From: a gamma proteobacterium HIMB30
GTDB taxonomy: Bacteria > Pseudomonadota > Gammaproteobacteria > Pseudomonadales > Litorivicinaceae
Reading direction: 5' to 3'
Length of the DNA: 64,000 nucleotides
NCBI GenBank assembly: GCA_000227525.2
Contig: AGIG01000028.1
Location: 310,001 to 374,000, forward strand
A model generated the notes under the pieces. That model worked only from the letters and a program-made list of their open reading frames with translations, searched no databases and had not been told where the DNA came from. Of the stretch, positions 59,978-63,504 are shown piece after piece (the first letter of the stretch is position 1; each line of letters begins with the position of its first letter). The position numbers and the translations under genes are program-made.

Positions 59978-60069
59978 TCTTTTCATCTCTTTGTTGGGAA
60001 AGCGATAGGTTTTTCGATGGCGTATTATACATAGCACTTGAAATTTATGCAGTGAAGGATTCAATTACC

Positions 60070-60678
60070 GTGCGCGATACACAGCTCGACCCAAGACTGG
60101 CTCAGACCAAGTTCCTCACTAGCGCACCGACACTGGCTCATTGCCCTCCTGAATGCGGACCCGAGATCGGCTTTTGTGGTCGTTCAAATGCAGGTAAATC
60201 CAGTGCACTAAATACATTAACCGGACAAAAAAGTCTGGCCAGAGTCTCGAAAACACCAGGGCGTACACAGCTGATCAATTTCTTCGAAGTTCCTCATACA
60301 GGGGGTTTCCTGGTCGACTTGCCAGGCTATGGATTTGCCAAAGTTCCAGAAGCAATGAAAAAACAATGGCAACAACATCTCGGTGAATTTCTTGCAGAAC
60401 GCCGAACACTCACCGGACTTGTACTACTAATGGACGTCAGACATCCGATGACAGCTCTCGACGAACAGATGTTGTCTTTCGCCGATCATCGGGACATGCA
60501 TACGCTCCTGCTTTTAACTAAAAGCGACAAACTGAGTCGAAATCAAGCCGCTAAAGCTCGTTTAACAGTGCAAAAACGGCGCCCACAATCACTTGTGCTT
60601 AATTTTTCCAGTCTCGACAAGACAGGAATCACCGAGGCCTCTGCTTGGATTACTCATCATTTGGATGGAAGCCAATAA
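60070..60678 (+). CDS. engB: Ribosome-biogenesis GTPase EngB (YihA/YsxC)
   Basis: 202 aa. G1 [12 protein letters not shown] (about 38-49), G2-like [12 protein letters not shown]3 [12 protein letters not shown]4 TKSDKLS. Needed for 50S assembly and cell division. GTG 60070 has AAGGAT about 9 nt upstream; GTG 60052 is an alternative adding six residues. The gene faces polA, and the small-RNA region lies between them. Confidence 0.94.
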
Positions 60679-60762
60679 TAAAAAACCCCGGTAGCTCACA
60701 CCGGGGTTTCAACATCCGACAGGGGTCTCGTCGGAACAACGACTGAGGGAAACTCGTTGCCT
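60678..60762 (-). ncRNA. Predicted ErsA/Spot 42-position small RNA
   Basis: About 85 nt on the minus strand, after polA. The 5' region begins at about 60762 (TSS inferred). Stem-loop 1: CAACGA (60754-60759) with UCGUUG (60737-60742), loop GUUUCCCUCAG. Stem-loop 2: CCGAC (60730-60734) with GUCGG (60716-60720), C-rich loop containing GACCCCU. A 10-bp terminator stem follows. Both exposed C-rich loops could pair with Shine-Dalgarno GGAGG/GGGG. The site between polA and engB is where ErsA (Pseudomonas) and Spot 42 (E. coli) lie, and the promoter is AlgU-like as for ErsA. Could also be polA 3' UTR. Confidence 0.7.
60683..60709 (-). terminator. Intrinsic terminator of the predicted sRNA
   Basis: Perfect 10-bp stem AAACCCCGGT / ACCGGGGTTT with 7-nt loop. 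Read on the minus strand it is followed by TTTTTTATTATT, so it ends the sRNA or polA transcript. On the plus strand it has only TTT, so it could also act weakly after engB. Confidence 0.9.
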
Positions 60763-60768
60763 AATTAT

Positions 60769-60795
60769 TCAGACAGTACAGATCTGAAAAAGTTC
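60769..60795 (-). promoter_or_regulatory. AlgU/sigma-E-like promoter of the predicted sRNA
   Basis: On the minus strand GAACTT (60790-60795) and TCTGA (60769-60773) are separated by 16 bp, matching the AlgU/RpoE consensus (GAACTT-N16/17-TCTGA). It lies between the polA stop and the first sRNA stem, 6-8 nt before the inferred start. ErsA in Pseudomonas is AlgU-dependent. An algU/rpoE gene is not in this window. Confidence 0.65.
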
Positions 60796-60813
60796 AATAA
60801 TCATTAGAAAATT

Positions 60814-63504
60814 TTAATGCGCCTCAAACCAACTTTCGCCACTCCCAATCTCGACGATTAAAGGAACCGCAAGCTCAGCTGCCGCCTCCATCTCTGTTCG
60901 GACGATCTGTCGGGCGCCATCTAGATCCTGATCACGAACCTCAAACACAAGTTCGTCGTGCACTTGCAATAACAAGTTACAGCCTAAATTTGTAGTCGCC
61001 AGCGCCTTTTGAACCCGTAACATGGCACGTTTAATAATATCCGCTGCTGTTCCTTGCATCGGAGCATTAATCGCTGCCCGCTCAGCAGCTTGGCGAATCG
61101 GCACTTGGCGTGCGCGAATATCAGGAAGCGTCAGCCGCCGGCCAAATACCGTCTCGACATAGCCTTTTTCATGAGCCATTGCTCTCGTCGAGTCCATGTA
61201 ATGTCTCACTCCAGGATATCGCTCAAAATATCGATCGATATAGGCGGCAGCCTCTGCCCGCTCAATTCCAAGTTGGCGAGCAAGGCCGAACGCGCTCATC
61301 CCGTAGATCAGTCCAAAATTAATCGCTTTTGCACGGCGTCGCTGCTCATCCGTGACGAACATTGGCTCGAGATCAAATACCTCAGCAGCGGTGGCTCGAT
61401 GGATGTCATCGCCACGAGAAAAGGCATCGACCAAACTCTGATCACCAGACAAGTGCGCCATAATCCGCAATTCGATCTGGGAATAATCGGCAGCCATGAC
61501 AGACCACCCATTCGGAGCAACAAATGCCTTTCGGATTCGTCGTCCCTCTTCAGTACGGATCGGGATGTTTTGCAAATTCGGGTCCGAAGATGACAATCGC
61601 CCGGTCGAGGTCACAGCCTGATGGAAAGAGGTATGAACGCGTCCATCCGCTGGATCACAGTCATCCGGCAACTTGTCAGTGTATGTTCCTTTGAGTTTCG
61701 ACAGACTGCGATGCTCAATCAATAGCTTCGGCAACGGATAGTTAAGCGCCAGTTCTTGCAAAACCTCTTCATTTGTTGACGGTGCACCTTTCGGTGTTTT
61801 TTTCAATACGGGCAGCTTCAATTCATCAAACAAAATTTCTTGTAACTGCTTAGGGCTCGCCAGATTGAATGGACGCCCAGCTAACGTCTGAGCTTCTGAC
61901 TCCAATTCTTCCAGTCTTGTCCCAAGTGACTTTGATTGTGATCTCAATATCGCGCTGTCGAGTAATGCTCCGTGATTTTCCATCTCACGAAGCACAAGCA
62001 TGACTGGTAATTCCAAATCTTGATAAATCGATTGTAACGAGGGCTCATCGGCCAAGCGCCGTGAAAATTGGTTAAATAGTCGCAATGTAATATCAGCATC
62101 TTCAGCTGCGTACTCAGATGCCTGCTCAAGCGGCACCGCTGCAAATCCAATCTGTTTGGCGCCTTTACCACAGACATCCTCGTAAGAAATCGTATCAATA
62201 CCCAATAACCGTTTCGCGAGAGAATCCATATCGTGGCGACCACCGGCAGCATCCAGTACGTAGCTCATTAACATGGTGTCAGCCAGCACACATCGTGGGA
62301 TCAAACCAACAGTCTCCAGAACCGTTAGGTCGTATTTCAGGTTATGACCAATCATTGTCAGAGTCGGGTCTGCTAGCAGCTTCGACACCTGGTTCAGAAC
62401 CACTGTGATATCAAGTTGCTCTCCAGCTAAATGTGCAACCGGGACATAACACGCCTTGCCTTCTGCAGGCGCCAATGAAATTCCGACGAGCTCTGCATGC
62501 CTCGAAACCAGCGATGTTGTTTCCGTATCAAGCGCAAATACTCCCGCCTCACGGCACTGTGACAGCCAAAATTCAAACCGATCGAGAGTAGTGACGAGCT
62601 CGTAGTCAGTATCAACCACAGCCGGAATCTCAACTGATGTCCGAATCGATGTGGAGGCATTTGAGAGCTGTTTTAAAAATTGATTGAGTTCGAGCTCGGT
62701 ATACAACGCGGTGAGACGCTCAAGATCTGGACCCGAACGGGATAGTTCCTCAAGCCCGACTGGTAATTCACAGTCCGTTTTAATGGTGACCAAAGCCTTG
62801 GACAGTGGTAGCACATGCATATGCTCCCGAAATGTCTCACCAATCTTGCCTCCAATGTCATTCGCGCTGGCAACAACTCCATCGAGAGTTCCGTAAGCAT
62901 TCAACCATTTCGCAGCCGTCTTCGGACCACACTTCGGAATCCCAGGTACGTTGTCAACGCTATCGCCTGTCAATGCGAGAAAATCAATAATGCGCTCTGG
63001 TGGAACGCCAAACTTTTCCGAAACACCAGCAGGCGTCAGAGTGGTGTCACTCATCGTATTCACGAGCGTTACTTTATCGGTCACGAGTTGTGCTAAATCT
63101 TTGTCTCCAGTTGAAATAAGAACGCTCTCTCCAGCCGCCTCCGCCATCTTCGCAAGCGTCCCAATCACATCGTCAGCCTCGACACCCGGTACTGCAAGTA
63201 ATGGAAATCCTTGTGCTTTGACAATCGCATGTAGTGGTTCAATCTGTTCACGAAGCTCACCGGGCATTTTTTCTCGATTCGCCTTGTATTCAGCGTACAT
63301 ATCGTCACGAAATGTTTTTCCTGACGCGTCAAACACAACAACCATCCGCTCAGCACCGGTGGAATCTGCCAGCTTATTAAGCATCGAGATCACGCCACGT
63401 ATAGCACCGACAGGCTGGCCGGTACTCGTTGTCAGTGGTGGCAAGGCATGGAAGGCGCGATATAGGTAAGAGGACCCATCGACTAAAACCAAAGGTGCAG
63501 GCAT
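60814..63504 (-). CDS. polA: DNA polymerase I
   Basis: 896 aa. 5'-3' exonuclease domain at the N-terminus (LVDGSSYLYRAFHALPP), proofreading domain with the active DEDD start FALDTETTSL (about residue 320), and family-A polymerase with DYSQIELRIMAHLSGD, RRAKAINFGLIYGMSAFGLA and QVHDELVFEV. Repair and Okazaki-fragment processing. Divergent from thrB with 68 bp between starts. Confidence 0.97.
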   Translation of the reverse strand: MPAPLVLVDGSSYLYRAFHALPPLTTSTGQPVGAIRGVISMLNKLADSTGAERMVVVFDASGKTFRDDMYAEYKANREKMPGELREQIEPLHAIVKAQGFPLLAVPGVEADDVIGTLAKMAEAAGESVLISTGDKDLAQLVTDKVTLVNTMSDTTLTPAGVSEKFGVPPERIIDFLALTGDSVDNVPGIPKCGPKTAAKWLNAYGTLDGVVASANDIGGKIGETFREHMHVLPLSKALVTIKTDCELPVGLEELSRSGPDLERLTALYTELELNQFLKQLSNASTSIRTSVEIPAVVDTDYELVTTLDRFEFWLSQCREAGVFALDTETTSLVSRHAELVGISLAPAEGKACYVPVAHLAGEQLDITVVLNQVSKLLADPTLTMIGHNLKYDLTVLETVGLIPRCVLADTMLMSYVLDAAGGRHDMDSLAKRLLGIDTISYEDVCGKGAKQIGFAAVPLEQASEYAAEDADITLRLFNQFSRRLADEPSLQSIYQDLELPVMLVLREMENHGALLDSAILRSQSKSLGTRLEELESEAQTLAGRPFNLASPKQLQEILFDELKLPVLKKTPKGAPSTNEEVLQELALNYPLPKLLIEHRSLSKLKGTYTDKLPDDCDPADGRVHTSFHQAVTSTGRLSSSDPNLQNIPIRTEEGRRIRKAFVAPNGWSVMAADYSQIELRIMAHLSGDQSLVDAFSRGDDIHRATAAEVFDLEPMFVTDEQRRRAKAINFGLIYGMSAFGLARQLGIERAEAAAYIDRYFERYPGVRHYMDSTRAMAHEKGYVETVFGRRLTLPDIRARQVPIRQAAERAAINAPMQGTAADIIKRAMLRVQKALATTNLGCNLLLQVHDELVFEVRDQDLDGARQIVRTEMEAAAELAVPLIVEIGSGESWFEAH

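Follow-up and report, generated by a model that had tools for sequence, protein, structure and literature searches.

A conserved candidate small RNA gene at the ErsA position of a Litoricola-group bacterium, probably sigma-E-driven, with a predicted porin target

Does the interval between polA and engB, which holds ErsA in Pseudomonas, also encode a small RNA (sRNA) in the Litoricola group of small-genomed marine bacteria? At this locus the question was raised by the original prediction, made from the sequence alone, which proposed an ErsA-like sRNA with its own minus-strand promoter. It had been put more generally by the authors of the sX13 study, who asked if sRNAs are also encoded at polA in other bacteria (PMC3771888). 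We analysed the window (the whole 64,000-nt stretch of DNA), the genome from which it comes (2.17 Mb in 36 contigs), the genus and the order. The features of the locus are as follows.

60790-60795, minus strand: GAACTT, the -35-like element of a promoter of sigma-E/AlgU type; 17 of 18 genus genomes retain it
60769-60774, minus strand: GTCTGA, the -10-like element, with a conserved GTC; the 15-nt spacing from GAACTT is the same in 17 of 18
60676-60764, minus strand: predicted small RNA gene, about 85-89 nt (110.6 bits with model R1, which was partly built from it)
60736-60760, minus strand: hairpin 1, with UUUCCCUC at 60745-60752, complementary to a putative porin ribosome-binding site
60715-60735, minus strand: hairpin 2, with ACCCC at 60722-60726; stem variable, with some compensatory changes
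60680-60710, minus strand: intrinsic terminator, stem 60710-60682 plus T run
60814-63504, minus strand: polA, DNA polymerase I, the upstream neighbour on the same strand as the RNA
60052-60678, plus strand: engB/ysxC GTPase, the convergent neighbour

The RNA is thus predicted to lie in the polA-engB interval, as ErsA does, and to start at about 60764-60762 on the minus strand, some 50 nt beyond the stop codon of polA. The elements first described here were recovered: the promoter, given as GAACTT-N16-TCTGA, reads GAACTT-N15-GTCTGA at 60795-60769; the two short stem-loops with C-rich loops correspond to hairpins at 60760-60736 and 60735-60715; and the perfect 10-bp stem is the terminator stem, with 10 Watson-Crick pairs (12 pairs when two G-U pairs are included) and a 3′ end that enters TTTTTTATTATT.

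Of the 22 genus genomes, 18 (this one among them) had an interval that was readable from end to end, and 17 of these keep GAACTT-N15-GTC at fixed spacing; the promoter is also present in all three sister-genus genomes. Loss of these elements in close relatives had been named at the outset as evidence against the RNA, and the alignment of the interval showed such a loss in one genome, G014, where promoter and RNA are both degenerate. This genome (locus L048) is a natural loss case, in which the promoter and the loop letters of the RNA are gone and the leader of the porin gene discussed below is kept. The motif by itself is not special: GAACTT-N15/16-GTCT is not enriched genome-wide (11 sites versus 21 for the reversed control), and its use as a genome-wide regulon finder was rejected on that count. 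The case for a promoter comes from position and conservation. In the stretch that separates polA from the RNA, nothing is as well conserved as the two boxes. This pattern also argues against a processed fragment of the polA mRNA 3′ end, as opposed to a promoter-driven sRNA, which the shared strand and the short distance from the polA stop codon would fit; we regard such a fragment as highly improbable.

The same arrangement was surveyed across the order in 139 loci of 138 genomes, drawn mostly from 292 and picked so as to span the families and to have coordinates on record. In 67 loci a polA stop was recognised; 2 of these were dropped as false and 7 as too short, leaving 58 to be tested. On the strand of polA, 37 of the 58 genomes, representing 22 of 37 genera and also 15 of 26 families, have the strict motif in the first 300 nt past the gene, versus none of 58 on the opposite strand, with 0.90 expected from shuffles; three of the 37 matches (G048, G219 and G304) lie off the promoter place. 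In 21 of 22 genera, CCC is more frequent than GGG in the sequence that follows the motif, the sole genus with the reverse being that of G048, whose motif match is also among those off the promoter place. A slightly looser motif was found near engB in 4 of the 24 loci without a recognised polA. Separately, two or more copies of the promoter motif occur near polA or engB at L136 (G299), L181 (G215) and L080 (G234), and a second C-rich RNA-like stretch is visible in G299; these multiple copies suggest tandem duplication of the putative sRNA gene.

The predicted RNA folds with a minimum free energy of -35.5 kcal/mol (z = -4.18), which none of 200 dinucleotide shuffles equalled. Its C-rich motifs lie mostly in the apical loops of two adjacent hairpins, and the loop of the terminator is not C-rich. 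For comparison among relatives, the alignment (A2) left out G014, with its degenerate promoter and RNA, and G013, in which two contigs share the interval; G006, G017 and G019 were also dropped, since engB was not matched whole. In the 17 intact genus copies, loop 1 is invariant at UCCCU and loop 2 nearly invariant at ACCCC, while the stems vary. Single-sequence folding formed both hairpins in 16 of the 17, the exception being G011, and paired one C of loop 2 in some copies. Within the supplied structure, 93.0% of cells are paired, as high a value being reached by 0 of 500 shuffles; five pairs have both sides changed (12 of 500 shuffles reach five), there is no surplus of further pair types (396 of 500 shuffles), and the covariation score is 0.174 versus 0.035-0.079 with partners slid. 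The structure was supplied by hand, so these counts lean towards it, and hairpin 1 was not predicted by RNAalifold alone. Covariation gives the RNA structure moderate backing. The strongest structural element is the terminator, with 99.4% of cells paired, and it probably also ends polA transcripts. This strength, and its placement between convergent genes, would be expected if the interval held a terminator for polA (and weakly for engB) with chance hairpins upstream and no independent gene. Such a reading leaves unexplained that 17 of 18 genus genomes have the promoter at fixed spacing, that 37 of 58 order members carry the motif and do so only on the strand of polA, and that the loop letters are invariant on changing stems; a known sRNA also occupies the interval in Pseudomonas-type loci, and we consider it very unlikely. 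An independent, conserved small RNA gene at the ErsA place, sigma-E-driven as judged from its sequence, is what the locus probably contains.

Given this position, we asked to which RNA family the gene might belong. The earlier assignment to an ErsA-like RNA stood as to the interval, the sigma-E-type promoter sequence and the C-rich loops, but not as to family membership in the Rfam sense. Neither the ErsA model (RF01719) nor the Spot 42 model (RF00021) gave a match at the gathering score or, for 60500-61000, up to E = 10, and the positive control worked, with RF01719 (Pseudomon-1/ErsA) matching four of four Pseudomonas-type loci scanned at 107.3-134 bits. Filing the RNA as ErsA or Spot 42 was thereby ruled out, and it follows that the place and the promoter-like sequence of ErsA are common to both groups and the RNA body is not. 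Spot 42, which adjoins polA in Escherichia and its relatives, is under CRP control. ErsA resembles the RNA described here in its polA-engB interval, in a sigma-E/AlgU-type promoter at the corresponding place, and in its stem-loops and C-rich parts. It is driven by AlgU (PMC8395346), lowers the porin OprD (PMC8395346, PMC7565897), and carries between SL1 and SL2 a 34-nt, U-rich, single-stranded domain II (PMC8575079); this domain is absent from the Litoricola-group RNA, which is shorter and has its hairpins adjacent.

In build, the RNA resembles sX13 of the Xanthomonadaceae, which likewise lies downstream of polA, is highly structured, and uses its C-rich apical loops to act on G-rich motifs close to where translation begins (PMC3771888). 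However, sX13 has three C-rich loops versus two here and acts without Hfq, and its model (RF02232) gave no match in the window up to E = 10. The best Rfam resemblance in the window was to anti-hemB/Burkholderia RNA 7 (RF02837), which shares a hairpin followed by a GC-rich terminator and was aligned over the whole model (26.3 bits, E = 4.3e-4), below the gathering score of 49.5. On its sequence, the RNA is best described as an sRNA in the ErsA position with a body of another, sX13-like build. Weak resemblances to sX13, ErsA and anti-hemB, all below the cut-offs, were found at the same place in other order members; those to RF02232 scored 34.4 (L123), 30.4 (L112), 25.1 (L147) and 22.9 bits (L166), against a cut-off of 50. 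One polA-engB RNA, in G054 (L123:112-232, minus strand), shows all three resemblances at a single place, below cut-off (sX13 34.4, anti-hemB 26.5 and ErsA 24.6 bits) and could be a bridge between these families.

Homology of the RNA body across the order was also considered and rejected: among 66 sources, model R1 clearly matched only the window. It gave six weak matches (E = 0.041-0.61), four of them within the polA-engB interval (L113, 21.1 bits; L125, 19.9 and 15.9; L114, 19.1) and two outside it (L082, 20.7; L068, 15.7), and no match in the Pseudomonas ErsA loci. A search with R1 for a second copy in 400 kb of the genome's own contig C9 and 12 other loci of the same genome found none; its two matches were the split copy of G013, and the decayed copy of G014 (L048) went unmatched. 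Among the matches listed in our literature searches there was no account of this RNA, and a search on Litoricola and small RNA found nothing.

If the promoter is read by a sigma-E-type factor, the corresponding regulators should be considered. The genome contains three genes in a row resembling an rpoE-rseA-rseB operon, as well as hfq, whose product assists ErsA in its action. The sigma factor scored 234.6 bits, just below the curated RpoE cut-off of 236.15, and the RseA-like protein 21.1 bits with RseA_N, below the cut-off of 24; the MucB/RseB protein is clear (MucB_RseB, 129.5 bits, cut-off 22.3). The RpoE model matched 18 of the 22 genus genomes, including all 10 near-complete ones, and exceeded the cut-off in four; the match is weak in G008 and G016 and fragmentary in G015. 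A similar promoter within 450 nt upstream of rpoE was not seen in 14 of 15 loci.

We then turned to candidate targets. A new result is that loop 1 is complementary to the predicted ribosome-binding site of a porin gene. The pattern TGAGGGAA-N1..9-ATG has 30 sites in five genomes versus 9 for the reversed control, and the porin site alone was seen to recur, heading the same gene in three of the genomes (G000, G001 and G020). The predicted target is an outer-membrane protein with a signal peptide, and Porin_4 matched two of three such proteins scanned. Its 11-mer GAGGGAATCTC, the complement of GAGATTCCCTC, has a single site in this genome and 27 sites in the 22 genus genomes, versus 5 for the reversed control: 10 at porin starts, 5 within the sRNA gene, 11 in long reading frames or on the strand opposite them, and one (in G004) preceding a 79-aa open reading frame. 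Each of the 10 porin starts located in the genus has it, and GAGGGAATCTCAAATG is unchanged in all 10 genomes in which the gene was found. The relatives' porins are 31-40% identical to that of this genome (54% for a short piece in G013), and the gene of G020 was matched in two pieces.

Duplex predictions were compared with a background of 439 start regions from 464 kb, taken by a simple custom open-reading-frame picker. With loop 1 of this genome, 2 of the 439 score at or below the porin, and with the relatives' loop GAGAUUCCCUCA none do; this rank is not independent, since the porin was found through the loop-1 pattern. An unrestricted 55-nt duplex does not favour the porin (261 of 439 background starts at or below it). 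Loop 2 gave no signal (116 of 439), and its pairing with the porin was rejected. The proposal that the RNA blocks Shine-Dalgarno sites gained a possible predicted target for loop 1, the porin. In all six genomes with both an intact RNA and the porin, loop-1 pairing is predicted at -13.9 to -22.2 kcal/mol, reaching 12 contiguous bases in G020; for the decayed RNA of G014 the value is -11.0 kcal/mol.

The distribution of the porin complicates this assignment. It was found in 10 of the 22 genus genomes and in 5 of the 10 near-complete ones, and in five genomes that are at least 90% complete (G002, G003, G005, G009 and G015) the RNA is present and the porin was not detected. Five genomes have a perfectly complementary loop; the porin was found in G020 and not detected in G003, G007, G009 and G010, which slightly lowers our confidence in the explanation favoured below. 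Conservation of the leader also has to be read with care: it is equally strong in G014, with its degenerate RNA, and extends far beyond the pairing site, so it cannot come from the RNA alone and must reflect other constraints.

Two further observations concern the porin locus. The 5′ leader (L252:1410-1517, and the same place in nine relatives) contains conserved hairpin-like stretches and, away from the predicted pairing site, an invariant block TACTTAAGTA (10 of 10); Rfam models found nothing in it when four porin loci were scanned, and it possibly holds a separate control element. About 210 nt upstream of the porin start site, and directed away from the gene, lies a second GAACTT-N15-GTCT (L252:1263-1287, minus strand; G000:C10:76169-76193) with a partly palindromic spacer, CGAAATTTCG; it is identical in G001 and G018 and is followed by no obvious gene or terminator.

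Retention of the RNA in the five near-complete genomes without a detected porin would be expected if an RNA driven by the same class of promoter acted broadly on G-rich start regions, with the porin incidental or one of many targets. The loops are short and C-rich like those of sX13, which act on G-rich motifs (PMC3771888). On the other side, 10 of the 22 GAGGGAATCTC sites outside the RNA gene are porin starts, and the 12-base pairing in G020 exceeds a generic anti-Shine-Dalgarno stretch. We judge broad targeting to be rather unlikely, and somewhat favour an envelope-stress sRNA, transcribed by RpoE, whose loop 1 would block translation of the Porin_4 mRNA. The promoter-like sequence, structure, conservation, rpoE-rseA-rseB-like genes, hfq and complementarity were all found by computation, and transcription, sigma-E dependence, pairing in cells and the direction of the effect are inferred, as follows. 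RpoE (sigma-E/AlgU) would be held by RseA and RseB, be freed under envelope stress, and start transcription at the promoter at 60795-60769, giving an RNA some 85-89 nt long. Loop 1 (GAGUUUCCCUC) would pair with the ribosome-binding site of the porin mRNA (TGAGGGAATCTCAAATG), and the duplex would block ribosome loading, so that less porin is made during envelope damage. Loop 2 (ACCCC) probably has further G-rich start regions as targets.

This scheme has known counterparts. MicA, RybB and VrrA are sigma-E-dependent, porin-repressing sRNAs encoded at other loci. Each is transcribed under a sigma factor of envelope stress and stops an outer-membrane protein from being made. For VrrA the protein gene is ompA (PMC2628432). 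In the present RNA, by contrast, the pairing part is predicted to lie within a hairpin loop.

To the question raised by the sX13 authors, the survey suggests a positive answer in many families of a single order, and the common promoter type would tie the polA slot to envelope stress. In the Litoricola group the porin start site also offers a testable target. We suggest tentatively, and with less confidence than for the porin model itself, that this slot is long-lived, its RpoE-type promoter staying in place across the order while the RNA body is rebuilt by lineage and nothing but the C-rich loops is kept. One envelope-stress sRNA gene, with the lowering of porin synthesis as its core task, might then be the ancestor of ErsA, of the Litoricola RNA and, more distantly, of sX13.
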